DNA of 64,000 nucleotides from Agromyces sp. CF514 (GTDB lineage Bacteria > Actinomycetota > Actinomycetes > Actinomycetales > Microbacteriaceae). The translations under genes and the position numbers were made by a program. Positions 1 to 64,000 of this stretch are shown here, one piece after another. Every line of letters starts with the position of its first letter. Positions within the stretch are counted from its first letter, which is position 1. Location of the stretch: positions 620,001-684,000 of the forward strand of contig NZ_FOZD01000002.1 in NCBI RefSeq assembly GCF_900113185.1, written 5' to 3'. A model generated the notes under the pieces. It searched no databases. It was given only the letters and a program-made list of their open reading frames with translations, and was not told the origin of the DNA.

Positions 1-1
1 C

Positions 2-100
2 GTCGGCGCGCTGCGTCGCTCGATGGCGACCACGGGCTACTCAGACCTCAAGGAGTTCCAGCGCGTCGAGGTCGTCGTCGCGCCGTACCAGTCGGTCTGA
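2..100 (+). CDS. GuaB-family IMP dehydrogenase-related protein, C-terminal end (partial)
   Basis: Only the last 32 codons are in the window, reading in frame from base 2 to a TGA at 98-100. The peptide, with ALRRSMATTGYSDLKEFQ followed by VEVVVAPYQSV, matches the C-terminus of the GuaB3-type IMP dehydrogenase family of actinobacteria, which belongs to guanine nucleotide metabolism. The 5' end lies outside the window, so length and catalytic cysteine cannot be checked. About 100 bases separate it from glpD. The guaA gene that completes GMP synthesis lies 8.5 kb downstream, which fits an ancestral purine cluster that has been interrupted. Family assignment from this short tail is good but not certain. 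Confidence 0.75.
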   Translation, partial: VGALRRSMATTGYSDLKEFQRVEVVVAPYQSV

Positions 101-212
101 TCGCCGTTTCCCGCGATCGCGCTGTGAACCCCTCCTGATCGGGCCGACGCTCGGGTAGCGTTGAACCTGGATCACGCGGTCGCCGTCTGCGATCGCGAGG
201 ATGGGGACGACG

Positions 213-2015
213 ATGGCGACACAGAAGTCCGAAGCGGCGGGGCCCGCGACGAAGTCGAGGGCGAACGCGGGGGCGAAGGCGACGACGGAGGCTCCGGCAT
301 CCGTCGCCCGCTCGACCAAGCTCGGCCCCGACGAACGCGATGCGGCGATCGCGCGTCTGAAGGAGAAAGAGCTCGACATCCTCGTGGTCGGCGGCGGCAT
401 CGTCGGCACCGGTGCCGCGCTCGACGCCGTCACGCGAGGGCTCTCGACCGGCCTGCTCGAGGCCCGCGACTGGGCGTCGGGCACCTCGAGCCGATCGTCG
501 AAACTCGTGCACGGCGGCATCCGCTATCTCGAGCAGCTCGACTTCAGGCTCGTGCGCGAGGCGCTCATCGAACGCGGACTCCTGCTGCAGCGCATCGCGC
601 CGCACCTCGTCAAGCCCGTGCGCTTCCTCTACCCGCTGAAGAAGCGCGTGTTCGAACGCCTCTACATCGGTGCGGGCATGCTGCTGTACGACGTCTTCAG
701 CTACACCGGCGGTCGGCCTCCGGGGGTTCCGCACCACCGCCACCTCTCGAAGCGCCAGGTCATGCGGGCGATCCCGTCGCTCTCGAACGACGCGCTCGTC
801 GGCGGGCTCACGTACTACGACGCGCAGGTCGACGACGCCCGGTACGTGGCATCCCTCGCCCGAACCGCCTCGTCGTACGGCGCGCACGTGGCGTCGCGCG
901 TCAAGGTCGAGGGATTCATCAAGGTCGGCGAACGGGTGGTCGGCGTGAAGGCGCACGACCTGCAGACCGACGAGCACTTCGAGATCCGTGCCAAGCAGGT
1001 CGTGAACGCGACCGGCGTCTGGACCGACGACACGCAGCGCATGGTCGGCGAGCGGGGCACGTTCAAGGTGCGCGCCTCCAAGGGCATCCACCTCGTCGTG
1101 CCGCGCGACCGCATCCAGTCGGCCATGGGCATGATCTTCCGCACCGAGAAGAGCGTGCTCTTCATCATCCCGTGGGGCCGGCACTGGCTCATCGGCACGA
1201 CCGACACCGACTGGAACCTCGACAAGGCCCACCCGGCCGCGACGGCCGCCGACATCGACTACCTGCTCGAGCACGTGAACGCGCTGCTCGCCATTCCGCT
1301 GACGCGTGAAGACGTCGAGGGCGTCTATGCGGGCCTGCGCCCGCTGCTCGCGGGCGAGAGCGACCAGACGTCGAAGCTGTCGCGCGAGCACATCGTCGCG
1401 CACACGGTGCCCGGGCTCGTGGTCGTCGCGGGCGGCAAGTGGACCACGTACCGCATCATGGCGAAAGACGCGATCGACGCGGCCGCCGATGCGCTCGACG
1501 GCCGCGTGCCCAAGTCCACGACGCAGGACATCGCGCTGCTCGGCGCCGAGGGCTACCAGGCGGCGTGGAACAAGCGGGCGAAGATCGCACGTGCGTTCGA
1601 CGTGCACAAGGTCCGCATCGAGCACCTCCTGAACCGCTACGGCACCCTGACCGACGAACTGCTCGACCTGATCAGGGCGGATGCCTCGCTCGGCGAACCG
1701 CTGCCCGGCGCCGACGACTACCTGGCCGCAGAGGTCGTGTACGCGGCATCCCACGAGGGCGCATTGCATCTCGACGACGTGCTCGCCCGCCGCACACGCA
1801 TCTCGATCGAGGCGTGGGACCGCGGGGTCTCCGCCGCTCCGGTCGCCGCGAAGCTCATGGCGGGCGTGCTCGGCTGGGATGCCGCGCGCGAGCAGCTCGA
1901 GGTCGAGCGGTACCTCGAGCGCGTGGCCGCCGAACGCGACTCGCAGCTGCAGCCCGACGACGAGTCCGCCGACCGCGTGAGGCTCGGCGCGCCCGACATC
2001 GTCAAGGTCGACTGA
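213..2015 (+). CDS. glpD: Glycerol-3-phosphate dehydrogenase, FAD-dependent
   Basis: This is an aerobic glycerol-3-phosphate dehydrogenase, oxidising glycerol-3-phosphate to dihydroxyacetone phosphate and passing electrons to the quinone pool at the membrane. The N-terminal FAD-binding Rossmann motif VVGGGIVGTGAALDA starts near residue 52. It is followed by the family signature SGTSSRSSKLVHGGIRYLEQ and, later, by LRPLLAG and GGKWTTYR. A C-terminal DAO_C-type domain follows, for about 600 residues in total, normal for the family. Two in-frame ATGs exist. The one at 213 has a GGGGA stretch about six bases upstream, while the one at 201 is poorly spaced, so 213 is chosen. The first 45 residues are Ala/Lys-rich and probably disordered. 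A glycerophosphodiesterase gene (12383-13459) could supply its substrate. Confidence 0.93.
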   Translation: MATQKSEAAGPATKSRANAGAKATTEAPASVARSTKLGPDERDAAIARLKEKELDILVVGGGIVGTGAALDAVTRGLSTGLLEARDWASGTSSRSSKLVHGGIRYLEQLDFRLVREALIERGLLLQRIAPHLVKPVRFLYPLKKRVFERLYIGAGMLLYDVFSYTGGRPPGVPHHRHLSKRQVMRAIPSLSNDALVGGLTYYDAQVDDARYVASLARTASSYGAHVASRVKVEGFIKVGERVVGVKAHDLQTDEHFEIRAKQVVNATGVWTDDTQRMVGERGTFKVRASKGIHLVVPRDRIQSAMGMIFRTEKSVLFIIPWGRHWLIGTTDTDWNLDKAHPAATAADIDYLLEHVNALLAIPLTREDVEGVYAGLRPLLAGESDQTSKLSREHIVAHTVPGLVVVAGGKWTTYRIMAKDAIDAAADALDGRVPKSTTQDIALLGAEGYQAAWNKRAKIARAFDVHKVRIEHLLNRYGTLTDELLDLIRADASLGEPLPGADDYLAAEVVYAASHEGALHLDDVLARRTRISIEAWDRGVSAAPVAAKLMAGVLGWDAAREQLEVERYLERVAAERDSQLQPDDESADRVRLGAPDIVKVD

Positions 2016-11419: not shown

Positions 11420-12226
11420 CTAGTCGCGCGCGATGGCGAGGAAGCGCAGGATCTCGAGGTAGAGCCAGATGACGGTGACCATGATGCCGAACGCACCGGT
11501 CCAGCCGTACTTCTTGGGTGCGCGGTTGCGGACGCCCTGCTGGATCGCGTCGAAGTCGAGCACGAGCGAGTAGGCGCCCATGAGGATCACGAGCACGCCG
11601 ACGATGAGGCCGAGCGGGATGCCGGCGATCTGCAGGCCGAGCAGGCCCCACGGGTCGTTGTTGATGCCGGTCCACATGAGGATCATGTTGACGAGCGAGA
11701 ACACGAGGTAGCCGACCATCGCGACGAGGAAGATCTTCGTGGCCTTCTTCGATGCGCGCACCTTGCCGCTCGCGAAGAGCGCCAGGGTCACGCCGACCAC
11801 CGCGAGCGTGCCGATGACGGCCTGCGCGACGATGCCCTGGTAGGCGGACTCGAACATGAGCGAGATGCCGCCGAGGAACACGCCCTGTGCAGCGGCGTAG
11901 GCGAGGATCAGGGCCGGCGACGGCTCCTTCTTGAAGATGTTGACGAGCGCGAGCACGAAGCCGACGAGCGAGGCGATCCAGAACAGCGCGGGCATGGCCG
12001 GGGTCACGGTCCAGCCGATCGCGGCCGTCACGAGGAGCACGGCGAACGCGCCGACGGTCTTCGCGATGGTGTTCTCGTAGGTCATGACCTCGCGGTCGGG
12101 CAGCGTCGCGGGCTGGTTGTAGATCTCCTGCAGCTGCTGTGCCGACATGTCTTGCGCGACGGCCACGGCTCCCTGCTTGGAAGAGAAGGCGGCACTCCGC
12201 GAGAAGGCGGGATTGTCGAGAGCCAT
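11420..12226 (-). CDS. Bax inhibitor-1/YccA-family membrane protein
   Basis: A 268-residue membrane protein with about 45 soluble N-terminal residues and then seven hydrophobic segments, matching the Bax1-I (YccA/YetJ) family. These proteins are pH-sensitive calcium leak channels or membrane proteostasis factors in characterised cases. The family signature near the last helices (DFDAIQQGVRNRAPKKYGWTGAFGIMVTVIWLYLEILRFL) is well conserved, including the aspartate pair thought to form the gating latch. An AGAGGAA ribosome-binding site precedes the ATG. It is divergent from the glycerophosphodiesterase gene and convergent with ldh. The cellular role here is unknown. Confidence 0.9.
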   Translation of the reverse strand: MALDNPAFSRSAAFSSKQGAVAVAQDMSAQQLQEIYNQPATLPDREVMTYENTIAKTVGAFAVLLVTAAIGWTVTPAMPALFWIASLVGFVLALVNIFKKEPSPALILAYAAAQGVFLGGISLMFESAYQGIVAQAVIGTLAVVGVTLALFASGKVRASKKATKIFLVAMVGYLVFSLVNMILMWTGINNDPWGLLGLQIAGIPLGLIVGVLVILMGAYSLVLDFDAIQQGVRNRAPKKYGWTGAFGIMVTVIWLYLEILRFLAIARD

Positions 12227-12382
12227 GGGGTGTTCCTCTGCTTTCGGCTGTCGTCGGTGCGGGGGAAGGTTCGGATGCGGGATCCGGTGCTCGTTTCAAT
12301 CTAGTCGAGAATGCCGTGATCACGCCGAGAGTTCACCCAAGGCGAAGCAGATCTCATCCTCACGACGGATACGCTGAGGCGC

Positions 12383-13459
12383 ATGCCGCCCCAGACGACG
12401 CCGCATCCGCTCGTGATCGGCCACCGCGGTGCATCGGGCTATCGACCCGAGCACACCAGGTCGGCCTACGAGCTCGCGTTCGCGCTCGGCGCCGACGCGG
12501 TCGAGCCCGACCTGGTCGCCACGCGCGACGGCGTGCTCGTGCTGCGCCACGAGAACGAGATCTCGGGAACGACGGATGTCTCCTCCCGACCGGAGTTCGC
12601 CGGCCGGCGAACGACCCGCGAGATCGACGGCACGCCGCTCACCGGCTGGTTCACCGAGGACTTCACGTGGGCGGAGCTCTCGACGCTGCGCGCGACCGAG
12701 CGGCTCGGCGCGCTGCGCGGGTCCAGCGCGAGCTTCGACGGCCGGTACCCGGTGATCCGTTTGCGCGACCTGTTCGAGATCATCGACCGTGCGACCGCCG
12801 AGCGGGCGCGAACGCTGCGCATGGTCGCCGAGTTCAAGCACGCGTCGTACTTCGCGGGCATCGGGCTGCCGCTCGACGAGCTGTTCGCGGCCGAACTCGA
12901 CGCGGCCGGCTGGGGCGACGGTGGTGAGCGCCTCATCATGGAGGCGTTCGAGCCGACCGTGCTCGATGCCCTCACGGCGCGCGGCATCCGCGGCCCCAAG
13001 GTGCTGCTCGTCGAGAACTCGGGCGCGCCGGCCGACCTCGTGCGCACCGACGGCGCCGCCGCACCCGCCTACGACTCCTTCGTCACCGGGGTCGGGCTGC
13101 GGACGCTCGTGGGCCGGTTCGACGGGGTGAGCGTCGGCGTGCCGAGACTGCTCGAGGCGGATGCCGCGGGCGGGCGCGGCGGCGGTGCCTCGCGAGGTGA
13201 CGGCTCGCCCGCCGAGACCCCGCTGCGGGGTTCGGCGCTCGTCGAGGCCGCGCATGCGGCCGGGCTCACGGTCTTCACCTGGACGCTCCGCCCCGAGAAC
13301 AAGTTCCTGCCCGCCCGCTTCCGCCGGGGCAAGGGCAAGGGCACGTGGGGCGACTGGCAGGGCGCGTTCGGCGAGGTGCTCGCCACGGGCGTCGACGGCA
13401 TCTTCGTCGACCAGCCCGACCTCGGGGTCGAGCTCCGCGACGGGCTCTCGGCCGAGTAG
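12383..13459 (+). CDS. Glycerophosphodiester phosphodiesterase
   Basis: A 358-residue GDPD-family enzyme, hydrolysing glycerophosphodiesters to glycerol-3-phosphate and an alcohol. The TIM-barrel catalytic motif HRGASGYRPEHT (residues about 14-25) and the metal ligands in EPDLVATRDGVLVLRHE are intact, as is the C-terminal TGVDGIFVDQPDLG typical of the family. There is no clear signal peptide, so it is probably cytoplasmic. A Gly/Arg-rich insertion lies at about residue 262-275. The product could feed GlpD encoded at the start of the window. A long hairpin follows the stop codon. Confidence 0.92.
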   Translation: MPPQTTPHPLVIGHRGASGYRPEHTRSAYELAFALGADAVEPDLVATRDGVLVLRHENEISGTTDVSSRPEFAGRRTTREIDGTPLTGWFTEDFTWAELSTLRATERLGALRGSSASFDGRYPVIRLRDLFEIIDRATAERARTLRMVAEFKHASYFAGIGLPLDELFAAELDAAGWGDGGERLIMEAFEPTVLDALTARGIRGPKVLLVENSGAPADLVRTDGAAAPAYDSFVTGVGLRTLVGRFDGVSVGVPRLLEADAAGGRGGGASRGDGSPAETPLRGSALVEAAHAAGLTVFTWTLRPENKFLPARFRRGKGKGTWGDWQGAFGEVLATGVDGIFVDQPDLGVELRDGLSAE

Positions 13460-13497
13460 CCGGCCCGCCCGCCCATGGGCGACCTCGCCGGCCACGG

Positions 13498-13543
13498 ACG
13501 ACGGATGCCGCGGCGGGATCGCTCCCGCCGCGGCATCCGTCGT
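13498..13543. terminator. Bidirectional terminator with GGATGCC arms
   Basis: A 21-bp perfect stem (13498-13518 with 13523-13543, loop TCGC) lies between the convergent phosphodiesterase and acsA genes. The arms contain CGGATGCCGCGGCGGGA and its complement, so the over-represented word GGATGCC is paired with itself. Confidence 0.9.
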
Positions 13544-13554
13544 TCGAATCGGCG

Positions 13555-15736: not shown

Positions 15737-15742
15737 GAATAC

Positions 15743-15975: not shown

Positions 15976-17109
15976 ATGTCCGCCGCACCGTTCGTCGCCA
16001 GCCCTTCGTGGCAGCATCCGCCAGCGCCGTCGTCCGTGCCCGTCCCGGCTCTGGTGCCTGCGCCGGCGCCGGTGGCTGCGCCGGCGCTGCCTGTGCCCCT
16101 GCCTGCGATCGATCCGGGTCTCCAGCGCGCGGGGGCCGACGACGCGTCGCCCGGTGGCGCGGCCGACGGCGTCGACCACGATCTCGGCGACCTGGGCCCG
16201 CTCGCCCGATTCGCGGCATCCGGCGACGTCACCGATCTCTTCCTCAACGGCTCCATGGGGCTCTGGGTCGATCGCGGAGCGGGACCCGAGCGAGAACCCG
16301 GCTGGGTCGCCGACGAACCGGAGGTGCGCGCGCTCGCCGTGCGGCTCATCGCGCGCGGCGGCCGGCACATCGACGAGGCGACGCCGGCCGTCGACGTGCG
16401 GCTCGGCCGGGGCATCCGGGTCCACGCCGTGCTTCCCCCGGTGTCGACCACCGGAACCCTGCTGTCGATCCGCATCCCGCGCGCGAGCGGCGTCCGCCTC
16501 GACGGGCTCGCGCGATCGGGCATGCTCTCGCCCGACGACGAGCTCGTGCTGCGCGCGGCGGTCCGCGATCGACAGAACCTGCTCATCACGGGCGCCGGCG
16601 GCACCGGCAAGACCACGTTGCTCGCGGCGCTGCTCGCCGAGGCGCCGGCGCATGAGCGCATCGTGGTCATCGAAGACGTCGCAGAACTGCAGGTCTCGCA
16701 TCCGCATGTGGTCGCGCTCGAGGCCAGGCAGCCGAACCTCGAGGGCACCGGTCGCATCGGTCTCGATGCCCTGCTGCGCGAGGCCCTGCGCATGCGCCCC
16801 GACCGCCTCGTGGTCGGCGAATGCCGGGGGCCCGAACTGCGCGAACTCCTCGGTGCGCTGAACACGGGGCACGACGGCGGGGCGGGCACGCTCCACGCCA
16901 ACTCGCTCGACGACGTCGCCGCGCGGCTCGAGGCGCTCGGCGCTGCGGCCGGGCTCTCGCCCGAGGCGGTCGCACGCCAGGCGGCCAGCGCGTTCGACCT
17001 CGTCGTGCACCTCGAACGTGCCGATGGGCTTCGCAGGGTGGCCGGGCTCGGTCGTCCCAGGCTCGTCGACGGCGCCCTGACGATCGAGCGGGTCGGGGCG
17101 CCGGCATGA
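15976..17109 (+). CDS. tadA: TadA/CpaF-family secretion ATPase
   Basis: A 377-residue type II/IV secretion ATPase of the CpaF/TadA group, expected to power assembly of Flp-type pili at the inner face of the membrane. After a Pro/Ala-rich disordered leader (residues about 10-50) come the N-terminal domain (DVTDLFLNGSMGLWVDR), Walker A GAGGTGKTTLL, an Asp box (RIVVIEDVAELQ), Walker B-region MRPDRLVVGECRG, and the His box GTLHANSLDDV. It opens an operon with ATGA overlap to tadB. The ssd/TadZ-like gene that usually precedes it in Actinobacteria is absent; 6C RNA sits there instead. Confidence 0.92.
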   Translation: MSAAPFVASPSWQHPPAPSSVPVPALVPAPAPVAAPALPVPLPAIDPGLQRAGADDASPGGAADGVDHDLGDLGPLARFAASGDVTDLFLNGSMGLWVDRGAGPEREPGWVADEPEVRALAVRLIARGGRHIDEATPAVDVRLGRGIRVHAVLPPVSTTGTLLSIRIPRASGVRLDGLARSGMLSPDDELVLRAAVRDRQNLLITGAGGTGKTTLLAALLAEAPAHERIVVIEDVAELQVSHPHVVALEARQPNLEGTGRIGLDALLREALRMRPDRLVVGECRGPELRELLGALNTGHDGGAGTLHANSLDDVAARLEALGAAAGLSPEAVARQAASAFDLVVHLERADGLRRVAGLGRPRLVDGALTIERVGAPA

Positions 17110-18212
17110 GCGCGCGCCCCGACGGGCCTTCGGGTGCACTGCCCGTCGCCGTCGCGAGTGCGGTCGAGGCCGTGCGTGCGCGTGCGCCGATGCTTCGCAG
17201 GAGCCCCGATGCCGCGGCCGGCATCGATCACGTCGCGGGCGTCGTCGAACGGTTGGCGGTGCTGCTGTCCGCGGGCGTGGCGGCCTCCGCGGCCTGGCGT
17301 CATCTCGCCGAGTCGGGCGAGCGCGACCCGGTGCTCGTCGCCGCCGCCGAAGCAGGCGAGCAGGGCGCGCCGATCGCCGAGGCGATCGCGAAGGCGCGTG
17401 CGGGCCTTCCTGCAGAGGGCGGATGGGCGGTGCTCGCTGCGGCGTGGCAGGTCGCGAGCACCGCAGGCGCGCCCCTCACGGTGAGCCTGCGAGACCTCGC
17501 GGCGGCGATGCGCGACGAGGCGCAGGTGCGACGCGAGGTGCGCACCTCGCTCGCGGGGCCGGCCGCCAGCGCGCGCATGGTGCTCGCGCTGCCGCTCGTC
17601 GCGCTCGTGTTCGGATCGGTGCTCGGCTTCGACACCGCGACCGTGCTGCTCGGCAATCCGATCGGACTCGCATGCCTGGTCCTCGGCCTCGCCTTCCTGT
17701 GGATCGCACTGCGCTGGAGCCGAGCGCTCGCCGCGCGTGCGGCGGCCTTCGACGAGGGCGCGGGCCTCGAGCTCGAGCTCCTCTCGATCGGGATGGCCGG
17801 GGGAGCGTCGGTCGAACGGGCCCGCGAGCTCGTCGACGCGGCGCTCCGGATGCACGGGCTCGGTTCCGACGCCGCGCCGCCCTCCGCCGCTCGGGCCGCG
17901 ACGCGGGCGCGCGTCGGACCCGGTGCCGCGGGAGCCGGTGCGACCGGGGTCGGGCGAGCCGCTGCATCCGCTCGCCTCGACGAGACCGTCCGCCTCGCCG
18001 AACGGGCTGGAGCCCCGCTCGTCGAGCTCTTGCGCGCCGAGGCGCAGCGCGGCCGGCGCATCGCCCGCACCGATGCCGCGACGCGGGGTGCCGCGCTCGG
18101 CGTTCGGCTCATGCTGCCGCTCGGGCTGTGCGTGCTTCCCGCGTTCGTGCTGCTCGGCGTCGCGCCGCTCCTCATCTCCGTCGTCACCGGCACCCTTGGC
18201 GGCGCCGCGTGA
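17106..18212 (+). CDS. tadB: Type II secretion system F-family protein (fused TadB/TadC-like)
   Basis: A 368-residue inner-membrane platform protein for Flp pilus assembly. It contains the GspF/TadB-type cytoplasmic segment (AVLAAAWQVASTAGAPLTVSLRDLAAAMRDEAQVRREVRTSLAGPAASARMVLALPLVALVFG) followed by helices near 155-215, and a second helical unit ending MLPLGLCVLPAFVLLGVAPLLISVV. Mycobacteria carry two separate proteins for this, so this single gene looks like a TadB-TadC combination with a Gly/Ala-rich linker near 265-290. The ATG overlaps the tadA stop. The product would form the membrane base on which TadA acts. Confidence 0.85.
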   Translation: MSARPDGPSGALPVAVASAVEAVRARAPMLRRSPDAAAGIDHVAGVVERLAVLLSAGVAASAAWRHLAESGERDPVLVAAAEAGEQGAPIAEAIAKARAGLPAEGGWAVLAAAWQVASTAGAPLTVSLRDLAAAMRDEAQVRREVRTSLAGPAASARMVLALPLVALVFGSVLGFDTATVLLGNPIGLACLVLGLAFLWIALRWSRALAARAAAFDEGAGLELELLSIGMAGGASVERARELVDAALRMHGLGSDAAPPSAARAATRARVGPGAAGAGATGVGRAAASARLDETVRLAERAGAPLVELLRAEAQRGRRIARTDAATRGAALGVRLMLPLGLCVLPAFVLLGVAPLLISVVTGTLGGAA

Positions 18213-18270
18213 CTCCGCCGACTCGTGCCGCCGTTCGCCGGACCTCCGGCCCCATCGAAAGGACCCATCC

Positions 18271-18588
18271 ATGCTCGACTCCCTCACCATCGCCGCGAAC
18301 GTCGCGACGGACGACGAGGCGGACTCCGTCGCGGACTCGCCCGGACCCGAGACCGACTCCCGTCCAGCCGTGCCCGACGCCGCGGCCCCCGCGGCGGCAG
18401 CGCCCCGCGGGCCGCTGCGACGGCTGCGTGCACGCCTCTCGGGCGATCGCGGCGCCGCGACCGCCGAGTACGCCGTCGCGACCATGGCCGCCGTCGGCTT
18501 CGCGGGCCTGCTCGTCGTCATCCTGCGCGGCGACGAGGTGCGCGGCATCCTCACCGATCTCGTGCGGAATGCGCTCACCGTCGGGTGA
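18271..18588 (+). CDS. Flp-type pilin, DUF4244 family
   Basis: A 105-residue small protein with a long hydrophilic, Pro/Ala/Asp-rich N-terminus, then RLSGDRGAATAEYAVATMAAVGFAGLLVVIL and a short C-terminal segment. The GAATAEYAV stretch, with glutamate five residues after the glycine, is the class III prepilin (Flp) cleavage/assembly signature, and one hydrophobic helix follows. GAAAGGA lies eight bases before the ATG. The gene is the major pilin candidate of the operon. No prepilin peptidase gene is in the window, so processing must rely on one elsewhere. Confidence 0.85.
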   Translation: MLDSLTIAANVATDDEADSVADSPGPETDSRPAVPDAAAPAAAAPRGPLRRLRARLSGDRGAATAEYAVATMAAVGFAGLLVVILRGDEVRGILTDLVRNALTVG

Positions 18589-18913
18589 CGCCGATCGCGG
18601 CAGCGTGACGGCCGAGTTCGCCGTCGCGCTGCCCGCGATCATGCTCGTGCTGGCGTTCTGCCTCGCCTCGGTGCACCTGGTGACCCTGCAGGTGCGGCTG
18701 ACGGATGCCGCTGCCGCCGCAGCTCGCGCGCTCGGCCGGGGCGAGGGGGTCGACGTCGCATCGGGCATCGCGAACCGCATCGCGGGCAGCGCCGGGCTCG
18801 CTCACAGCGACGACGGAACCTTCACGTGCGTGACGCTCGACGCATCGGGCGGGGGACTTCTCGCCCCGATCCGGCTCACGAGCGAGGCGTGCGCGATGTC
18901 CGGGGGGCACTGA
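18569..18913 (+). CDS. TadE-like pseudopilin
   Basis: A 114-residue protein beginning with a short basic/acidic leader ending DRGSVTAEFAVALPAIMLVLAFCLASVHLVTLQ, a prepilin-like N-terminus with Glu at +5 and one long helix. The remainder is a small extracytoplasmic domain with a cysteine pair (FTCVTLD and EACAM). ATG 18569 is chosen because it overlaps the flp gene by 20 bases and gives a leader in front of the cleavage site; GTG 18605 would remove it. TadE proteins are minor pilins needed for Flp pilus assembly. It overlaps the next gene by one base. Confidence 0.82.
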   Translation: MRSPSGDADRGSVTAEFAVALPAIMLVLAFCLASVHLVTLQVRLTDAAAAAARALGRGEGVDVASGIANRIAGSAGLAHSDDGTFTCVTLDASGGGLLAPIRLTSEACAMSGGH

Positions 18914-19308
18914 TGGCGCACGCGTCGGAACGAGGCGCGACCGCGCGCGATCCGACCGACCGGGCTGCGGTCGACCGAGGTGCCGCTTCCGTCGTCGCGG
19001 TGGCCCTCGTCTCGGCGGTCGTGCTGCTCACGACGACCGCGCTCGGCGCGGCGGCGGGCTACGTCGACGCGCGCCGCGCCGCGACCACGGCAGACGCGGC
19101 CGCGCTCGCCGCGGCCGACGCCGCGAGCGGGGCCGCACCGGGCATCCCGTGCGAGGTCGCGGAGTCGATCGCCCGGCGCGCGGGCGCCCGGCTCGTGTCG
19201 TGCGAACTCGACGGCATCGTCAGCACGGTCGCCGTCGTGGTGCCCGGATCGATCGCCGGACTCGATGCGACGGCGTCAGCGCGCGCTGGACCGCCCGGGA
19301 GCACCTGA
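18913..19308 (+). CDS. Rv3654c/TadE-like Flp pilus-assembly protein
   Basis: A 131-residue protein with an N-terminal hydrophilic leader, then GAASVVAVALVSAVVLLTTTALGAAAGYVDARRAATTADAAALAAADAA, which is a helix followed by the Ala-rich region characteristic of the actinobacterial Rv3654c family and of the TadG/TadE-like pilus-assembly N-terminus. Two cysteines (IPCEVAE and VSCELD) may form a disulfide outside the membrane. Its ATG overlaps the TadE stop (TGATG). It is the last gene of the Tad operon and probably a minor pilin or adhesin component. A full-length TadG with a von Willebrand domain is not present. Confidence 0.8.
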   Translation: MAHASERGATARDPTDRAAVDRGAASVVAVALVSAVVLLTTTALGAAAGYVDARRAATTADAAALAAADAASGAAPGIPCEVAESIARRAGARLVSCELDGIVSTVAVVVPGSIAGLDATASARAGPPGST

Positions 19309-28160: not shown

Positions 28161-28212
28161 GCGGATGCCGCCGGCAGGCCGCACCCTCTGTAGGCCCGCC
28201 GGCGGCATCCGC
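28161..28212. terminator. Hairpin with GGATGCC arms after the SMR pair
   Basis: GCGGATGCCGCCGGC (28161-28175) pairs perfectly with GCCGGCGGCATCCGC (28198-28212); further pairing of AGGCC with GGCC can shorten the 22-base loop. It is probably the terminator of the SMR operon. Confidence 0.75.
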
Positions 28213-54800: not shown

Positions 54801-56360
54801 GTGAGCCTCGAATTCGACGCAAGCCGTGCCCGATGGACCGCCCGAGAGGAGCTCGCCGAGCGGATGATCCCGCTCATCGGCGGCCTCTACCGCGAGCACG
54901 GGGTGGTCACCTCGATCCACGGCCGCCGCCTCATCAACCGCTCGCCGATCGAACTCCTCAAGGCGCACCGCTTCGCCCGCCAGGCCGGCGACGTCGAGCT
55001 CGACCCCGCCGACACGATGCGCGTGCTCGAGGCGCTGCGCGAGATCGCACCCGGCCCGGCCTCGCTCGACCTCGCACGTCTGGTGGCCCGGTACGCGGCA
55101 TCCGGTGTCGAAGGCGCACACGGCGGCGAAGGCGAGCGGATGCCGCTGGCCGACTTCCTGCGCACCGAGCTCGCCCCCGTGCTCGCCGCCGACGGCGCCG
55201 AGCGCCCCGTGCGCGAGGGCACCAACGTCGTGCTCTACGGCTTCGGCCGAATCGGACGCCTGCTCGCGCGCATCCTGATCGCGCACTCGGGCGACGCGAC
55301 CGGGCTGCGGCTGCGCGCGATCGTCGTGCGCAAGGGGTCGGCGAACGACCTCGTCAAGCGTGCCAGCCTGCTGCGCCGCGACTCGGTGCACGGCCCCTTC
55401 GCGGGCACGATCGAGGTCGACGAGCAGGCCAACACGATCCTCGCGAACGGCACGCTGATCCAGGTCATCCACGCGAACGACCCGGCCGCGATCGATTACA
55501 CGACCTACGGCATCCACGACGCGATCGTCGTCGACAACACGGGCCGGTGGCGCGACGAAGAGGGGCTCTCGCAGCACCTCCGTTCCACGGGCGTCGCGCG
55601 CGTGCTGCTCACGGCACCCGGCAAGGGTGCGATCAAGAACATCGTGCACGGCATCAACGACGGCGACATCGAGGCATCCGACCGCATCCTCTCGGCCGCG
55701 TCGTGCACGACGAACGCCATCACGCCCGTGCTGAAGGCCGTCGAAGACGCCTACGGCGTCGTACGCGGACACGTCGAGACCGTGCACTCGTTCACGAACG
55801 ACCAGAACCTCATCGACAACTTCCACTCCGGCGACCGCCGCGGCCGCTCGGCGGCGCTGAACATGGTCATCACCGAGACGGGCGCGGCGAAGGCCGTCGC
55901 CAAGGCGCTGCCGTCGTTCGCGGGCAAGCTCACCGGCAGCGCGATCCGCGTGCCCACGCCCGACGTGTCGCTCGCGATCCTGAACCTGCAGCTCGAGCGC
56001 CCCACCTCGAAGGACGAGATCAACAGATACCTGCGGCAGGTCTCGCTGACCTCGCCGCTGCGCCAGCAGGTCGACTACATCGAGTCGGCCGAGGTCGTCT
56101 CGACCGACTTCGTGGGCTCGAGCCGCGCCGGCATCGTCGACGGGCTCGCCACGATCGCCGACGGCACCGACGCGGTGCTCTACGTCTGGTACGACAACGA
56201 GTTCGGCTACTCGTGCCAGGTCGTGCGGGTCATCGAGGCCATGGCCGGCACGCACCCCGTCGTGCTGCCCGTGCGCGAGCCGGTCGTGCTCGGTTCCGTC
56301 GCACCCGACGCGGCGTCGGCTGCGGACGCCGACGCGCAGCCCGAGCTCGTCGCCGGCTGA
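54801..56360 (+). CDS. Glyceraldehyde-3-phosphate dehydrogenase, long actinobacterial type
   Basis: A 519-residue GAPDH. About 125 residues of extra N-terminal helical sequence (WTAREELAERMIPLIGGLYREHGVVTSIHGRRLINRSPIELLKAHRFAR) precede the normal Rossmann start VVLYGFGRIGRLLARILI. The catalytic cysteine is C302 in AASCTTNAITPVLKA, and the C-terminal WYDNEFGYSCQVVRV is typical. This matches the GapB-type long GAPDH of Corynebacterium and relatives, linked to gluconeogenesis, rather than classical GapA. The start is GTG 54801, after a GAGAGAAG; an upstream ATG (54711) would add unlikely sequence. It is convergent with the metzincin-like gene, with a bidirectional terminator between. Confidence 0.93.
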   Translation: MSLEFDASRARWTAREELAERMIPLIGGLYREHGVVTSIHGRRLINRSPIELLKAHRFARQAGDVELDPADTMRVLEALREIAPGPASLDLARLVARYAASGVEGAHGGEGERMPLADFLRTELAPVLAADGAERPVREGTNVVLYGFGRIGRLLARILIAHSGDATGLRLRAIVVRKGSANDLVKRASLLRRDSVHGPFAGTIEVDEQANTILANGTLIQVIHANDPAAIDYTTYGIHDAIVVDNTGRWRDEEGLSQHLRSTGVARVLLTAPGKGAIKNIVHGINDGDIEASDRILSAASCTTNAITPVLKAVEDAYGVVRGHVETVHSFTNDQNLIDNFHSGDRRGRSAALNMVITETGAAKAVAKALPSFAGKLTGSAIRVPTPDVSLAILNLQLERPTSKDEINRYLRQVSLTSPLRQQVDYIESAEVVSTDFVGSSRAGIVDGLATIADGTDAVLYVWYDNEFGYSCQVVRVIEAMAGTHPVVLPVREPVVLGSVAPDAASAADADAQPELVAG

Positions 56361-56381: not shown

Positions 56382-56418
56382 CGGATGCCGCGGGCACGGG
56401 TTGCGCCCGCGGCATCCG
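56382..56418. terminator. Bidirectional terminator with GGATGCC arms after gap
   Basis: CGGATGCCGCGGGC (56382-56395) pairs perfectly with GCCCGCGGCATCCG (56405-56418), loop nine bases, between the convergent gap and metzincin-like genes. Confidence 0.88.
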
Positions 56419-56428: not shown

Positions 56429-58429
56429 TCAGCGGTCGACGCGAAGCGCACCGCCCAGTCGCAGCGATTGCTGCGCGCGGAGCCTGCCGACGTCGATCGG
56501 TCGCTCGACCGTGAGCCCCTCGGTGACCTTCACGCCTTCGGCCACCTTCAAGGACTCGGCGGTCTTCAGTGCCTCGGCCGTCTTCAGTGCCTCGGCGACC
56601 CGCAGGCCCTCCTCGGCCTTCAGGCGCTCCGTGACCTTCAGTGCCTCGGCCGCCGCGGCGCGCTCGAGCACGACCGCGTCGCCGAACTCGATCTGCAGGC
56701 GGGTGATCTCGCGCGGGTCGAACTTCGGGTCGGGCGTCGGCTTCTCGAACGGGCCCGGCTTCACCCGGACGTCGAGGTCCTTGAGCCGCCGCGTCCAGCA
56801 GGCGAGCACCTTCGGGAAGTCGTCGGGGTGGTACCCCTCGAACCAGCCCCCGGCCTCGAAGCGCGTCTGCCCGATGGCGGAGCCGACCTGGTCGGAGACC
56901 GTGCAGACCAGGTCCGCCCCGAGGCGGATGCCGCCGGGGGAGGTCAGCCCGAGCTCGAACGTGACGGGGTCGATCGTGTAGTCGACCGCGAACGTCGACC
57001 CGTCGAACGGCACCTGCACCACGCCGCTCGTGCCGGAGATCGGCACGCCGCCGACCGTCCAGCTCGCGGTCGGCGCCGTCGCGGTCGGTTGCCCGACGCC
57101 GCCGAAGCCCGCCGTCGACACGGTGAAGATCTCGAGCGTCGAGGTCGCGTACGTGCCGCGGCGAACGGTGTCGCCGCAGGGCGTCTCCTCGGTCGTCTCG
57201 GCGCCGACGACCCCGAGCGTGTCCTCGCTGCGCAGCCGCGATGCGACGGTCACCGCGCGGTTCGCCGGCCCGTTCGAGACGCGCAGGTCGACCCAGGTGC
57301 GGTCGGGATCCACACCGACGATCGTGACGGTGAGGTTGCTGGAGTCGACCGCAACGTCGGTGTCGATCGAGTTGAGCGGCACGACGCCGCGGTACCAGAT
57401 GCGCGGACCCGTGCCCGGGACATCCGTCAGCGAATGCACGACGACGCCCTCGCGCGACAGGTCGGTGCCGACCGGGTCGAGACCGGCATCCCATCCGGTG
57501 GCCGTGCGGAACTCGACGTAGATGCGACCGACGCCGCTCGCCGGCTCGCCCGCCGGGTGGAGCACGAGCAACGTCGGCTGTCGCCCCGAACCCTGGCGTG
57601 CGACATCCGCCGACGCGCTCCGCAGTCGAACCGACACCGAGCCCGACGTCGGGAACGGTCGCTCGACCACCGAGCCGGCCATCGCGTCGGGCAGTTGCCG
57701 ATGCAGGTGCGCGCGCGAGAGGTTCGGGCCGGCCGACCCGAACGCTCCGGGCGTCGGCCATCCGTTCACCGCCGGGATGCTGCGCGTCGGCGTGGACTGC
57801 CAGCGCGGCCCCGTGCCGAGCCACCTCGAGCCGAACGACGCCGACGACATCAGGTCGAACGGCGAGCCGTAGACCGGGTCGACGATGACGTTCGCGTCCT
57901 TCGGATCCCAGTCGGAGCCGTTGTTGAGCAGCCCGTAGCTGTGCTCGAAGCCGAGCACGTGCCCGACCTCGTGGCACATGAACGTGTGGTTGCCGGTGGC
58001 GGCCGCGATCACCGCGACCGGGAACCCGCGCACGCTCGTCGCGCCGGCGTCGAAGTTCTGCGTGATCGTCGCGGCCTCGCCGGGCTGCCCGGCCTTCGGG
58101 TTCGGGATCTGCCGCTGCCCCGGGTACATGAGCACGACGACGCCCTGGAACCCGGCGAGGGGGTCGTGGTCGGGGAACTTCGCACGCAGCGCGTCGATCG
58201 CGAGCTCGGCCTGCTTGGCGCGCGAGACGTCCTCGCCGAGGCTCACGACGACCCACGGCATGAGCGCCGAGTCGACGAAGTCGAGGTGCTTGCGGGTGGT
58301 GTCCTCCCAGTACCGGAGCACCGAGGAGGAGCCGACCATGAACAGGTCGATGAAGGGGCGATCGCCGACTGCGGGCGCGGCGCTCTCGTGCCGGGCGCGG
58401 ATGACGGCGAGTTTCACGGGCTTGGTCAT
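56429..58429 (-). CDS. Metzincin-type zinc metalloprotease-like protein with C-terminal hexapeptide repeats
   Basis: A 666-residue protein of unknown role. A metzincin zinc site is clear: H153, E154, H157 and H163 in CHEVGHVLGFEH, with the Met-turn M194 in SPFDLMSS. Before it is an alpha/beta region (residues 24-150) and after it a mostly beta region rich in SVSVRLRSAS, VDLRVSNGPANRAVTV and similar strands. There is no signal peptide, pro-domain cysteine switch, or membrane helix, although metzincins are normally secreted. Residues about 595-642 are eight hexapeptide repeats of form E-x-L-K-x-A (see 56504-56647), followed by LRLGGALRVDR. A tailocin/contractile-system or other non-classical cargo is possible but nothing nearby supports it. 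It is a single-gene unit. Confidence 0.82.
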   Translation of the reverse strand: MTKPVKLAVIRARHESAAPAVGDRPFIDLFMVGSSSVLRYWEDTTRKHLDFVDSALMPWVVVSLGEDVSRAKQAELAIDALRAKFPDHDPLAGFQGVVVLMYPGQRQIPNPKAGQPGEAATITQNFDAGATSVRGFPVAVIAAATGNHTFMCHEVGHVLGFEHSYGLLNNGSDWDPKDANVIVDPVYGSPFDLMSSASFGSRWLGTGPRWQSTPTRSIPAVNGWPTPGAFGSAGPNLSRAHLHRQLPDAMAGSVVERPFPTSGSVSVRLRSASADVARQGSGRQPTLLVLHPAGEPASGVGRIYVEFRTATGWDAGLDPVGTDLSREGVVVHSLTDVPGTGPRIWYRGVVPLNSIDTDVAVDSSNLTVTIVGVDPDRTWVDLRVSNGPANRAVTVASRLRSEDTLGVVGAETTEETPCGDTVRRGTYATSTLEIFTVSTAGFGGVGQPTATAPTASWTVGGVPISGTSGVVQVPFDGSTFAVDYTIDPVTFELGLTSPGGIRLGADLVCTVSDQVGSAIGQTRFEAGGWFEGYHPDDFPKVLACWTRRLKDLDVRVKPGPFEKPTPDPKFDPREITRLQIEFGDAVVLERAAAAEALKVTERLKAEEGLRVAEALKTAEALKTAESLKVAEGVKVTEGLTVERPIDVGRLRAQQSLRLGGALRVDR
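56504..56647 (-). repeat. Eight 18-bp coding repeats (hexapeptide E-x-L-K-x-A)
   Basis: In-frame repeats within the metzincin-like gene encode EALKVT, ERLKAE, EGLRVA, EALKTA, EALKTA, ESLKVA, EGVKVT and EGLTVE. On the + strand they read as repeated GCCTCGGCGGTCTTCAGT-like blocks. Hexad periodicity with aliphatic residues suggests a beta-solenoid or bactofilin-like stalk; an amphipathic helix is the alternative. Confidence 0.88.
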
Positions 58430-59872: not shown

Positions 59873-60661
59873 ATGAGACTCGACGGCGCATCCGCGATCG
59901 TCACCGGAGGGGCCTCGGGCCTCGGCCGGGCCACCGCCCGCGCACTCCTCGAGGGCGGCGCCTCCGTCGTGCTCGTCGACCTGCCCGGCCCGCGCGGCGA
60001 GGAGGCCGCGGCCGAGCTCGGCGAGCGGGCGCACTTCGTCGCGGCGGACGTCTCGAACGAGGCCGAGGTGCAGGCGGCGGTCGCCGCGGCATCCGCGCTG
60101 GGTCCGCTGCGGGTCGCCGTGAACTGCGCGGGCATCGCGACGGGCAACCGCACCGTCGGACGCGAGGGCCCCGCGCCACTCGACGTCTTCGAGCGCACGA
60201 TCCGCGTGAACCTCATCGGCACGTTCAACGTGACCCGGCTCGCGGCGGCCGCGATGGCCGCGACCGAGCCGACCGTCGGGCAGGTGCCGGGCGGGCCCGA
60301 GACCGCCGAGCGCGGCGTGATCATCAACACCGCGTCGGTCGCCGCCTTCGACGGGCAGATCGGGCAGGCCGCCTACTCGGCCTCGAAGGGCGGCGTCGCG
60401 GCCATGACGCTGCCGCTCGCGCGCGACCTGTCGAAGCTGCTCATCCGCGTCGTCACGATCGCGCCGGGCATCTTCGAGACGCCCATGATGGCCGGCATGG
60501 CGCAGGAGATCCAGGACTCGCTCGCCGCGCAGATCCCGCACCCGTCGCGGTTCGGCTCCCCGGCCGAGTACGCGGCGCTCGCGCGCTCCATCATCGACAA
60601 CCCGATGGTGAACGGCGAGACGATCCGCCTCGACGGCGCGATCCGCATGGGCCCGAAGTAG
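59873..60661 (+). CDS. SDR-family 3-hydroxyacyl-CoA dehydrogenase (HSD10-like)
   Basis: A 262-residue short-chain dehydrogenase. Cofactor motif TGGASGLGRATA, acidic NAD-selecting VDLPG, VNCAGIA, and the catalytic YSASKGG (Tyr/Lys) with upstream serine in INTASVAAFDGQ. The pattern MRLDGASAIVTGGASGLG with ...APGIFETPMMAGM... and LDGAIRMGPK closely matches type II 3-hydroxyacyl-CoA dehydrogenases (human HSD17B10-like) of bacteria. AAAGGA precedes ATG 59873. It probably works with the upstream thiolase. Confidence 0.9.
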   Translation: MRLDGASAIVTGGASGLGRATARALLEGGASVVLVDLPGPRGEEAAAELGERAHFVAADVSNEAEVQAAVAAASALGPLRVAVNCAGIATGNRTVGREGPAPLDVFERTIRVNLIGTFNVTRLAAAAMAATEPTVGQVPGGPETAERGVIINTASVAAFDGQIGQAAYSASKGGVAAMTLPLARDLSKLLIRVVTIAPGIFETPMMAGMAQEIQDSLAAQIPHPSRFGSPAEYAALARSIIDNPMVNGETIRLDGAIRMGPK

Positions 60662-60790: not shown

Positions 60791-60822
60791 CGGATGCCAC
60801 GGGGCCGACCCCGTGGCATCCG
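60791..60822. terminator. Bidirectional terminator with GGATGCC arms
   Basis: CGGATGCCACGGGG (60791-60804) pairs perfectly with CCCCGTGGCATCCG (60809-60822), loop CCGA, between the convergent SDR and membrane-protein genes. Confidence 0.9.
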
Positions 60823-60835: not shown

Positions 60836-61855
60836 CTACGCGCGCACCTGCGAGCGCGGGCTGCGATTGCCCGGGAAGTCTAGCGTGCCGCGGCCGCCGC
60901 CCCGCGCCGCCTTGATGATGCCGTCGATCGCATCCCAGGCGCAGACGCCGACGATCACGGCGACGAAGAGCACCGACAGCACCCATTGCGCGTCGGCGTC
61001 GAGGTGCGGTTCGATCAGTGCGAGGAACTCGGCGCTGAACAGGCGTCCCTCGATGAACAGCCAGATCACCGGGATCGCGAACGCGGCGTTCAGGGCGACG
61101 TTGACGAGCGCGTTGGCCCAGTTCCAGTCGCTGCGGAAGATCCACACCGCGAAGGCGGCCTCGAGCGCGATGAGCACGAACAGGTACGGGATCCAGAACG
61201 ACCACAGGTCCGGCGAGAGCAGCGGCTCCGGAGAACGCTCGCCGCCGATCCACACGACGCCGAACTGCTGCCAGATCAGGAACGCCGCGGCGATGCCGAG
61301 CCAGACCAGGGTGGCGATGAGGTCGGCTCGCCGATGCGGGCGCCGGAGCTCCGGAAGCTGCGGCAGCTGCTCGGGCGTCCAGCCCAGCGCCTCGTCGACG
61401 TCGGTGCCCGCTGCGGTGCCGTATCGCTCGATCAGGGCGAAGACGAGGGTCGTCCAGAACGCGAGGTGGACGGCGACGGTGACGCCGATGCCCACGGCCT
61501 GACCGATGACCTCCCAGCCGCCGCCGGCGATCACGAGGCCGAGCGCCGATGCGGCCGCCGCGGTCGCGGGAACGAAGGACTCGAGGAACACCAGCAGCCG
61601 CTTCCAGATGAGGAAGTACCGCGGCCCGATGAGCATGAGCGGCCGGTCGCTGTAGCTCGCCGCGAGCGCCGCGGGGTGGCCGAGTTCGACGAGGGCGTCG
61701 CGCTCGGCCGTCTCGGGCGTCGAGGCACCCGACTCGATGCGTGCCTCGATGGTGTCGGCGATGCGCTCGGCGAGGTCGCGCGAGAGGTCCTCGCGCTGCG
61801 AGGCGGGAAGGCTGCGCGTGGCCGCGAAGAGGTAGCGGTCGGTGAGCTCGGTCAT
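60836..61855 (-). CDS. Membrane protein with permease-prefix-like N-terminus
   Basis: A 339-residue protein. The first 80 residues are soluble and helical (LTDRYLFAATRSLPASQREDLSRDLAERIADTIEARIESGASTPETAERDALVELGHPAALAASYSDRP), the HAAS/permease-prefix pattern found in proteins encoded beside PadR regulators. About six or seven membrane helices follow. Its ATG overlaps the stop of the upstream PadR gene. The typical PadR/HAAS pairing suggests a small stress- or ligand-responsive regulatory unit; no transporter ATPase is present and the exact role is unknown. Confidence 0.83.
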   Translation of the reverse strand: MTELTDRYLFAATRSLPASQREDLSRDLAERIADTIEARIESGASTPETAERDALVELGHPAALAASYSDRPLMLIGPRYFLIWKRLLVFLESFVPATAAAASALGLVIAGGGWEVIGQAVGIGVTVAVHLAFWTTLVFALIERYGTAAGTDVDEALGWTPEQLPQLPELRRPHRRADLIATLVWLGIAAAFLIWQQFGVVWIGGERSPEPLLSPDLWSFWIPYLFVLIALEAAFAVWIFRSDWNWANALVNVALNAAFAIPVIWLFIEGRLFSAEFLALIEPHLDADAQWVLSVLFVAVIVGVCAWDAIDGIIKAARGGGRGTLDFPGNRSPRSQVRA

Positions 61856-62300: not shown

Positions 62301-63743
62301 CTACTGGCCGGCGTGCGCCTCGAGGAACGCGTACACCTCGGCGTCGTCGACGCCCGGGAACGTGCCGGAGGGCAGCGGCGAGAGCACGTGCGCGTGCAGG
62401 CGGGCGCTCGGCCAGGCGCGCCCCGCCCAGCGCTCGGCCAGGCCGGCCGGCGCCCGGCGGCAGCACGCCTCGTCGGGGCACGTCGAGACCGCGCGCAGGG
62501 TGGTCTCGCGCCCGCGGAACCACTTGGCCTGCGCGAACGGCACGCCGACCGAGATCGAGAACTCCGCGGCATCCGTTCGACCGGTCTGGGTGGCGCACCA
62601 GAAGGTGCCTGCGGGCGTGTCGGTGTACTGGTAGTTCTCGGTCGTGCGATTCGTGTGCTCGAACGCGGTGCGCGCGCTCCACTTCTTGCAGACCCACTGA
62701 CCCTCGATCGAGCCGGTCACGTCGGTCGGCAGCGGCAGCCCGTCGTTCTCGTAGCCCTTGAGCAGCGCGCCGTCGCCGGCCACGCGCAGGAAGTGCACGG
62801 TCATGTCGAGGTAGGTCGTGCCGAGGTTCGTGAAGCGCAGCGCCGCGGCCTCGTGCGTCACGCCGAACGCGTCGCGGAAGTCCTCGATGGCGAGTCGCTT
62901 CTCCTTCTTGGCCTGCTGCAGGAACGCGACGGAGGCATCGCGCGGCATCAGGCAGGCGGCGGCGAAGTAGTTGATCTCGAGTCGCTGCCAGAGGAACTCG
63001 TCGTAGCTCGCGGGCGGCTGGTGGCCGAGCAGGCGGTGCGCCATGGCCTGCAGCGCCATCGAACGCAGGCCGTGCCCGCCCGGGATCGACGCGGGCGGCA
63101 AGTAGATGCGTCCGTTCGCGAGGTCGGTGATCGACCGGGTCGAGTCGGGCAGGTCGTTGACGTAGATGAGCTGGAACCCGAGGCGCTCGGCCATGACGCT
63201 CACCTCGCGGTGGGTCACGGCGCCCGTGCGATGACCCGCTGCGCGCACCTGCTCCTCTGCGAGCTGCTCGATCTCGGGCAGGTGGTTGTCGCGTTCGCGC
63301 ATGCGTTCGCGCAGGTGCGTGTTGGCCCGGCGCGCCTCCTCGGGCGTCGCGATGGCCTGGCTGGCCCGGCGCTGCAGCTCGCGGTGCAACCCGACGATCG
63401 CCTCGAGGGTGTCGTCGCCGATGCCGCGTCCGGCGCGGATGGGCGGCAGCCCGAGGCTCGCGTACAGCGGGCTCGCCTGGGCGCGCCCGAGCTCGAGCTC
63501 GAGCGCCGCACGCGGGCTCGGCGCCTCGCGGGAGAGCAGGTCTTCGAGCCCGATGCCGAACGCCGAGGCGAGCGCGTCGAGTGTCGAGAGCTTCGGCTCG
63601 CGCTTGCCGTTCTCGATGAGCGAGAGCTGCGAGCCGGCGAGTCCGACCGCCTCGCCGGCCTGGTCGAGGGTCATGCCGCGCTCGCCGCGGAAATGGCGGA
63701 TGCGCTGGCCGAGCGTCGCGAGATCGGTGCTTCCGGTCTTCAT
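62301..63743 (-). CDS. XRE-family regulator with IrrE-like and ScfR domains (RamB-like)
   Basis: A 480-residue regulator of the RamB type. N-terminal XRE HTH (residues about 11-66: LGQRIRHFRGERGMTLDQAGEAVGLAGSQLSLIENGKREPKLSTLDALASAFG), a middle ImmA/IrrE-like region with degenerate metallopeptidase-type QAMAHRLLGHQPP, and a C-terminal DUF2083/ScfR domain with cysteines (WVCKKWSARTAFEH, STCPDEACCRR). RamB in Corynebacterium controls acetate and glyoxylate genes and responds to carbon source. Here it is divergent from the pckG gene, whose homologue is linked to the same metabolic switch, and acsA is elsewhere in the window. Regulation of pckG is inferred. Confidence 0.9.
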   Translation of the reverse strand: MKTGSTDLATLGQRIRHFRGERGMTLDQAGEAVGLAGSQLSLIENGKREPKLSTLDALASAFGIGLEDLLSREAPSPRAALELELGRAQASPLYASLGLPPIRAGRGIGDDTLEAIVGLHRELQRRASQAIATPEEARRANTHLRERMRERDNHLPEIEQLAEEQVRAAGHRTGAVTHREVSVMAERLGFQLIYVNDLPDSTRSITDLANGRIYLPPASIPGGHGLRSMALQAMAHRLLGHQPPASYDEFLWQRLEINYFAAACLMPRDASVAFLQQAKKEKRLAIEDFRDAFGVTHEAAALRFTNLGTTYLDMTVHFLRVAGDGALLKGYENDGLPLPTDVTGSIEGQWVCKKWSARTAFEHTNRTTENYQYTDTPAGTFWCATQTGRTDAAEFSISVGVPFAQAKWFRGRETTLRAVSTCPDEACCRRAPAGLAERWAGRAWPSARLHAHVLSPLPSGTFPGVDDAEVYAFLEAHAGQ

Positions 63744-63881
63744 GGCTTAAGACTATCGAAAGAACACACATTCTTAACACGGGAAATGGTCACTCGGATG
63801 CCGCAATCCGCCGCATTCTGGAAACACGAACCGATTCCGGGGCCGCTGCGAGGCGGAACCGGCACCACAGAAGGGACGACG

Positions 63882-64000
63882 ATGACCATCTCCGAGTTCA
63901 CGCCCGGCACCGAGGCATCCGTCGAAGCATCGGCCCCCGTGCCGCACGGCACCACCGACCACGACCTGCGCGCCTGGGTCGCCGAGATCGCCGCGCTGAC
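63882..64000 (+). CDS. pckG: Phosphoenolpyruvate carboxykinase (GTP), N-terminal part (partial)
   Basis: Only the first 39 codons are present. After a short variable leader the protein reads DHDLRAWVAEIAALT, the usual start of the GTP-dependent PEP carboxykinase of Actinobacteria (LRAWVEEVAALTQP in relatives). The enzyme converts oxaloacetate to PEP in gluconeogenesis. ATG 63882 is preceded by GAAGGGA. Active-site residues lie beyond the window, so the identification rests on this short N-terminus and on the RamB-like neighbour. Confidence 0.72.
   Translation, partial: MTISEFTPGTEASVEASAPVPHGTTDHDLRAWVAEIAAL

Follow-up and report, generated by a model that had tools for sequence, protein, structure and literature searches.

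Agromyces sp. CF514, a member of the family Microbacteriaceae, carries a heavily over-represented word, GGATGCC, which by analogy with known systems we interpret, at a probability of roughly 55%, as a DNA uptake sequence of this family. The word was analysed in a stretch of 64,000 nucleotides (contig C2:620001-684000 of a genome of 4.3 Mb in four contigs; hereafter, the window), elsewhere in the same genome and in relatives. A preliminary description of the window had listed uptake, a Chi-like function, methylation and nucleoid-protein binding as candidate meanings. The analogy with uptake words has since been strengthened: the word comes in dialects around an invariant core, lies on both strands without polarity in CF514, forms inverted hairpin pairs at gene ends, and is accompanied by competence and pilus genes, a combination that resembles an uptake sequence.

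Excess of GGATGCC over composition and codon usage

The window holds 87 copies of GGATGCC or its complement GGCATCC, 39 on the + strand and 48 on the - strand, when 13.3±3.7 are expected from dinucleotide shuffles, none of 100 of which attained this number, and 20.5 from an order-3 Markov model. The excess is therefore larger than first estimated, namely, some 80 copies versus about 15. The whole genome contains 5513 copies (2592 forward and 2921 reverse), or one per 780 bases, versus only 166 forward and 259 reverse copies of the same word spelled backwards; the 5.7 kb contig C4, considered as a possible plasmid, proved to be an rRNA operon and was excluded from counts.

1..64000, both strands: GGATGCC/GGCATCC, 87 dispersed copies with consensus CGGATGCCGCG (coordinate listing, Markov extension, strand counts and mismatch tolerance)

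The best 11-mer extension of the word is CGGATGCCGCG, with 30 copies in the window versus 0.7 expected (order-3 Markov), the alternative GCGGATGCCGC being weaker (16 versus 0.5). Single-base variants showed that the GGATG core is nearly invariant, as core variants occur at 0-2x expectation, save one at 8x for which the expectation is only 0.2. In the long word, position 7 may turn from C into T (15.8x), position 9 into any base (12-17x) and position 11 into A (21x), and little change is tolerated at positions 8 and 10.

Whether base composition, the usual choice of codons or the stems of terminators could account for this excess was evaluated in 324 kb, comprising the window and 13 other stretches of the CF514 genome. 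Part of the 7-mer count is indeed codon-driven, and the word is denser in gaps (2.6 per kb) than in genes (1.06 per kb). However, after shuffling of synonymous codons 106±7 copies are expected in genes and 301 are observed, while the 11-mer CGGATGCCGCG is found 91 times versus 5.2±1.9; moreover, 301 of the 409 copies sit entirely within genes. The codon-aware comparison, which the preliminary description had called for, thus rules out codon usage and composition as the cause, and we find this explanation as a whole scarcely credible. Within genes, the excess is present on both the sense (116 versus 27.8) and the antisense strand (185 versus 77.8), which marks it as a word of the DNA duplex and not of the mRNA. 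No regular spacing was found, the coefficient of variation of the distances between copies being 1.00, compared with 0.93±0.05 under random placement. A second word, CGGACTC, fell from 125 versus 30.6 (Markov) to 109 versus 76 in the codon-aware test, so it is mostly codon usage. Genes were those of our own gene caller, which fails at lower GC: it returned zero genes in Alpinimonas and Homoserinimonas, and covered only 17 of 81 kb in Leucobacter OH1287.

Dialects of the word within Microbacteriaceae

Copies of the 11-mer are plentiful, though very unevenly distributed, across 150 Microbacteriaceae genomes, with 1996 in CF514 and from 0 to 786 in the other 149. Relative to its own reversed control, CGGATGCCG is enriched 8.5-31x in seven of the eight members of the family sampled and 2.7x in the eighth, versus no more than 4.5x (median 1.4) in the 111 genomes sampled from other families. 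GGATGCC was not seen as an excess word in pools of Arthrobacter (61/44.1, observed/expected), Streptomyces (28/22.7) or Cellulomonas (16/16.6). Strong word excess is, in this sample, restricted to Microbacteriaceae.

Dialects were first seen from word counts in named relatives, and were then confirmed from some 60-80 kb of each genome and by codon-aware shuffling of 29 sets. The words found, namely, GGATGCC, GGATGCCTCG, GGATGCTGC, GGATGCG, CCGGATG, ACGGATG and CGGATCC, all share GGAT. GGATGCC itself characterizes CF514, Ruicaihuangia, Leifsonia Leaf264 and several Microbacterium, at about 3x (codon-aware), and is weaker, at about 2x, in Pseudolysinimonas and in another Agromyces genome (G142). 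A third genome of Agromyces, G079, carries GGATGCCTCG (28/1.1, codon-aware), and Microbacterium AG1240 (14/1.3, codon-aware) and Gd4-13 carry GGATGCTGC. GGATGCG is the word of Agrococcus (89/34.7) and Zimmermannella (68/36.7), both codon-aware, and of a second Agrococcus metagenome-assembled genome (MAG; 20/6.3); CCGGATG that of M. halophytorum (98/21.7, codon-aware) and Frigoribacterium sp. JB110; and ACGGATG or AGCGGATG that of Cryobacterium (31/4.8 for AGCGGATG in the pool, codon-aware). CGGATCC prevails in M. excoecariae (261/30.2, codon-aware), where other words are depleted (GGATGCG 9/31.3; CCGGATG 9/16.5), and is also enriched in Leucobacter OH1287 (127 versus 31.7 under the Markov model in 81 kb; 24/4.7 over the 17 kb assigned to genes) and in the MAG L020 (22/2.7). 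No clear word excess was found in Amnibacterium and Labedella (codon-aware), and none in a de novo scan of Aurantimicrobium.

The dialects cluster on a tree of GuaA. Labels of 34 genomes, which include non-dialect labels, require 14 changes versus 20.1 after shuffling, and none of 200 shuffles was as low; L. tardus and L. wl10 entered this analysis, and the partial Mantel test described below, as 'none' before measurement, which later gave 9/5.2 and 14/6.0 for CGGATCC. One supported clade of this tree unites M. excoecariae, M. halophytorum and JB110 with the five Leucobacter. By GuaA identity, the closest named relative of CF514 is an Agromyces MAG (90%), with further matches mostly to Microbacteriaceae. 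Gene transfer was considered for the dialect shared by JB110 and M. halophytorum and was rejected, as their GuaA proteins are 93% identical and the two are close kin.

The GuaA comparison also revealed a contig (L012) deposited as Stenotrophomonas maltophilia P13, which encodes a GuaA 85% identical to that of CF514 and has the top word density among 102 loci counted (33.8 per 10 kb). This contig probably represents contaminating DNA of some member of the Microbacteriaceae.

Turnover at orthologous sites

Conservation of word sites was compared with that of random 7-mers of equal GC, using pairs in which the same genomes recur in either direction, so that the comparisons are not independent. 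Between species of the same dialect, the word is kept at 264 of 680 orthologous sites versus 196.6 expected (16 directed comparisons), as in M. halophytorum to JB110, where 42 of 79 sites are kept against a 29% baseline. Between species of different dialects, only 24 of 664 sites are shared versus 140.4 expected (14 comparisons). The extreme case is that of M. excoecariae and M. halophytorum, whose aligned DNA is about 77% identical and which share almost no word sites (0 of 110 in the direction from the former to the latter, against a 23% baseline). Part of this deficit between dialects is an ascertainment effect, to be expected if the excess copies of a genome were gained recently. The pattern suggests that copies arose separately in each lineage after the dialects diverged, and were then held.

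Inverted pairs of the word at gene ends

Four hairpins in which the word pairs with itself, as proposed from the window alone, do exist and fold strongly (energies computed on the + strand):

13498..13543, no strand: inverted word pair (13503+, 13532-), long hairpin; -57.9 kcal/mol, z -9.3; between convergent genes 12383-13459 (+) and 13555-15510 (-)
28161..28212, no strand: inverted word pair (28163+, 28204-), hairpin; -49.9 kcal/mol, z -5.2; between + strand genes 27795-28127 and 28250-29233
56382..56418, no strand: inverted word pair (56383+, 56411-), hairpin; -37.6 kcal/mol, z -4.6; between convergent genes 54864-56360 (+) and 56429-58429 (-)
60791..60822, no strand: inverted word pair (60792+, 60815-), hairpin; -37.6 kcal/mol, z -5.1; between convergent genes 59873-60661 (+) and 60836-61855 (-)

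The gap holding the last of these has two extra words, at 60691 (+) and 60747 (-). Three of the four hairpins lie between convergent genes, in keeping with the preliminary description, the one at 28161-28212 lying instead between two genes of the + strand. In the 324 kb, 34 of 39 word pairs at most 60 bases apart are inverted, and 24 of these inverted pairs are intergenic, versus none for five control words. Among gaps of 20-400 bases, inverted pairs occur in 10 of 46 convergent, 10 of 108 same-strand and one of 41 divergent gaps, with word densities of 8.1, 3.5 and 2.5 per kb, respectively. The claim that the word is built into terminators holds for the strong stems and fails for the T-run: none was found 3' of the stem at any of the four hairpins, as a Rho-independent terminator would have, and a T-run terminator scan of 12000-29000 predicted neither of the two hairpins located there. 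Accordingly, the hairpins may be called terminators only tentatively.

Competence and Tad/Flp pilus genes

A Tad/Flp cluster is encoded in the window, upstream of topA:

15976..17109, + strand: TadA-like pilus ATPase (T2SSE), candidate part of an uptake machine; PF00437, E 6.6e-41
16821..18212, + strand: TadB/TadC-like membrane protein (T2SSF), open frame, gene call starting at 17259; PF00482, E 7.8e-14
18271..18588, + strand: DUF4244 protein, probable Flp-like pilin from its position in the cluster; PF14029, E 9.3e-22
18605..18913, + strand: TadE-like pseudopilin; PF07811, E 5.4e-4, 20.5 bits, under the Pfam cut-off of 22.9
18913..19308, + strand: TadF/Rv3654c-like small protein; the shorter call, 19000-19308, has no Pfam match

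The genes for ComEA and ComEC sit on contig C1 of CF514. The occurrence of com genes, which had been suggested as relevant to an uptake function, is general: ComEC is present in 48 of 48 genomes and the DUF4244 (Tad pilin) family in 34 of 34, as are relatives of ComEA, TadE and TadF (tblastn, with a limit of E 1 per locus). The worst matches were 7e-12 for TadE, 6e-15 for TadF, 8e-12 for Flp, 2e-112 for ComEC and 9e-5 for ComEA, for which another match was also weak (E 7e-6).

In four Leucobacter (wl10, celer, tardus and massiliensis; L220, L221, L222 and L273), the TadF open frame extends into a long C-terminal part, which in L. celer, the one tested, matches peptidase family M23 (E 2.1e-9). 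Leucobacter OH1287 has a TadF without this extension.

A proposed uptake sequence and its alternatives

In the mechanism proposed here, naturally competent cells would capture free DNA bearing the word of the family by means of a Tad/Flp pilus, one component of which would bind that word specifically, and would pass the DNA to ComEA and ComEC, after which homologous recombination would swap out the resident copy. Alleles with the word would be taken up more often, and by such molecular drive the word would accumulate at thousands of genic and intergenic sites. A shift in the preference of the recogniser would let the old word decay and a new one build up, giving rise to a new dialect, and the inverted pairs at gene ends may act as 3' hairpins, as a by-product. 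We know of no ComP-like receptor for the Microbacteriaceae word. The more specific proposal has, in our judgement, even odds: a separate and fast-diversifying uptake-sequence system with dialects, served by a Tad/Flp competence pilus in Actinobacteria, beyond the lineages for which words of this type are established.

Several observations weigh against an uptake sequence. The com and tad genes are also present in the word-poor Amnibacterium, Labedella and Aurantimicrobium, so their presence does not discriminate. In a partial Mantel test of low power that controlled for GuaA, similarity of the pilus and competence proteins did not co-vary with dialect: partial r was -0.15 for TadE, -0.03 for TadF, 0.19 for Flp, -0.07 for ComEA and 0.06 for ComEC, with permutation p values of 0.88, 0.57, 0.07, 0.70 and 0.31, respectively. 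This test used 24 of the 34 genomes, the 10 labelled none, weak or unknown being excluded, and for eight of its labels (six GGATGCC and two Cryobacterium) the source is a single locus each, some 16-22 kb long. Neither the DNA uptake sequence (DUS) of Neisseriaceae nor the uptake signal sequence (USS) of Pasteurellaceae is a palindrome, as the word of the CGGATCC dialect is. Furthermore, CGGATCC reaches only 1.7-2.3x in four other Leucobacter, no higher than in the Arthrobacter outgroup pool (59/33.1, or 1.8x), and these were therefore not counted as clear bearers of this dialect. Inverted pairs are few in other dialect genomes, being clearly abundant only in CF514. Sharing of sites within a dialect is uneven, with three of 16 comparisons under the baseline and five above it at p<0.05; CF514 and G079 keep 14 of 44 and 13 of 49 sites, the same as the 28-29% baseline. 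Depletion of the word in atypical genes was sought and the excess was not lower there, being alike across quintiles of GC content at third codon positions (2.3-3.4x), although this evenness and the random spacing neither help nor hurt an uptake function much. Lastly, GGATGCC occurs at 0.8-2.2x expectation in six of eight sampled phages and at 1.6x in a Curtobacterium plasmid stretch (L275), but at 5-6x in two small Microbacterium phages of 17.5 kb, Efeko (L255, 19/3.7) and Upsilon (L276, 22/3.7). The genes of Efeko hold 18 copies versus 10.2±1.6 after synonymous shuffling (15 of 28 listed genes). This excess counts against a simple rule by which foreign DNA lacks the word.

Among the alternatives, a nucleoid-associated or chromosome-organising protein that binds the word genome-wide, with a specificity that drifts between lineages, would agree with the dispersal over both strands, genes and gaps, with a near-palindromic centre (CGG ATG CCG) that would fit a dimer, and with the presence of the word in the two small phages. 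We consider it unlikely, however, given that the spacing is random and that, by our reasoning, the replacement of thousands of sites at each dialect change would require selection at each of them. A polar signal, akin to Chi or to FtsK-orienting polar sequences (KOPS), that serves chromosome translocation or recombination by AddAB or AdnAB is very unlikely. In its favour, Chi words are over-represented genic words that vary from one species to another, and in 11 tests of strand balance in other genomes low p values were obtained for Zimmermannella (0.012), C. frigoriphilum (0.017) and one more (0.051). In CF514, however, the strands are balanced, both for CGGATGCCGC (85 forward, 90 reverse; chi2 5.3, 14 degrees of freedom, p 0.98) and for GGATGCC (p 0.19), as judged per stretch rather than relative to a mapped origin. 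A palindromic dialect such as CGGATCC is unable to carry polarity, and RecC (PF04257) was found in none of 28 genomes, the E. coli control being recovered, in a search that did not extend to AddAB or AdnAB. The Chi-like meaning initially entertained thus loses ground.

The methylation-linked meaning is likewise disfavoured. It supposes that a methyltransferase and methylation-linked repair make and keep the word, with a methyltransferase for each dialect, and we judge it quite unlikely. In its favour, the GGATG core is a FokI-type site, and the GGATCC of one dialect is the BamHI site. PF02086, the family of the FokI methyltransferase, was found in three of 28 genomes, CF514 not among them. Our search covered five families, namely, PF01555, PF02086, PF00145, PF02384 and PF07669. 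PF01555 is present in 26 of 28 genomes, CF514 included, which also has a marginal match to PF00145 and a match to PF07669. However, PF01555 is also found in word-poor genomes such as Aurantimicrobium; none of the five families was found in the GGATGCG-rich Agrococcus (G188; assembly completeness is not stated); and M. halophytorum lacks PF01555, PF02086 and PF00145, having one weak locus for PF02384/PF07669. The precedent is the highly iterated palindrome HIP1 of cyanobacteria, a GC-rich word of very high abundance whose place is taken by alternates in certain lineages. HIP1 and its alternates are palindromic and accompany cognate methyltransferases (PMC4390886), whereas among the words of Microbacteriaceae CGGATCC alone is a palindrome.

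The PF01555 methyltransferase of CF514 (G000:C1:537998-538756, open frame of 327 amino acids) belongs to a family found in both word-rich and word-poor genomes, and might be a conserved orphan methyltransferase.

Relation to known systems and implications

In Pasteurellaceae, copies of the USS are scattered over both strands, within genes as well as between them, and presumably spread through uptake drive. The word of Microbacteriaceae shares this dispersal, and is unrelated to the USS in sequence and phylum. The closest parallel is with the DUS of Neisseriaceae, a word of about 10 bases over-represented in thousands of copies. Its dialects retain a CTG core and mirror the phylogeny of the core genome, and its copies form inverted pairs linked to terminators (Frye et al. 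2013; PMC3630211). Here too the dialects follow phylogeny around a short invariant core and inverted pairs lie near gene ends. The differences are that Actinobacteria lack an outer membrane, that the pilus is Tad/Flp instead of type IVa, that the core is GGAT, that one dialect is palindromic, that inverted pairs are clearly abundant only in CF514, and that this is a candidate drawn from sequence alone. With respect to machinery, transformation of the actinobacterium Micrococcus luteus requires tad genes and comEC, and this species has a tad cluster with an Flp-like pilin and TadE/F, together with comEA and comEC, as found here; the text of that study never uses the term 'uptake sequence' (PMC4322843). 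Eight pooled Arthrobacter loci (171 kb, M. luteus not in the sample) gave no such top word.

In the open-licence literature, partly judged by title, we found no report of an uptake sequence in Actinobacteria or Microbacteriaceae, which does not establish its absence from print, and only unrelated work on the word itself. If the word is an uptake sequence, DNA self-recognition in transformation would extend to Gram-positive actinobacteria with a different pilus. Natural transformation would be common in Microbacteriaceae, with dialects acting as recombination barriers, and about seven dialects in one family would let one follow, as in a natural experiment, the joint change of a DNA-binding specificity and of thousands of genomic sites. 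Adding a word of the matching dialect to DNA should then increase transformation in laboratory strains of Microbacterium. Otherwise, a word-reading system with lineage-specific specificity still calls for an explanation.

GGATCC in phages and a plasmid

GGATCC is depleted in the sampled phages (L252-L256, L276 and L277) and in the Curtobacterium plasmid L275. Examples are Buldak (0 versus 10.5 expected), Eden (0 versus 8.1) and the plasmid (1 versus 18.6), the exception being phage Min1 (26 versus 27.4). This depletion might reflect restriction pressure of the BamHI type.

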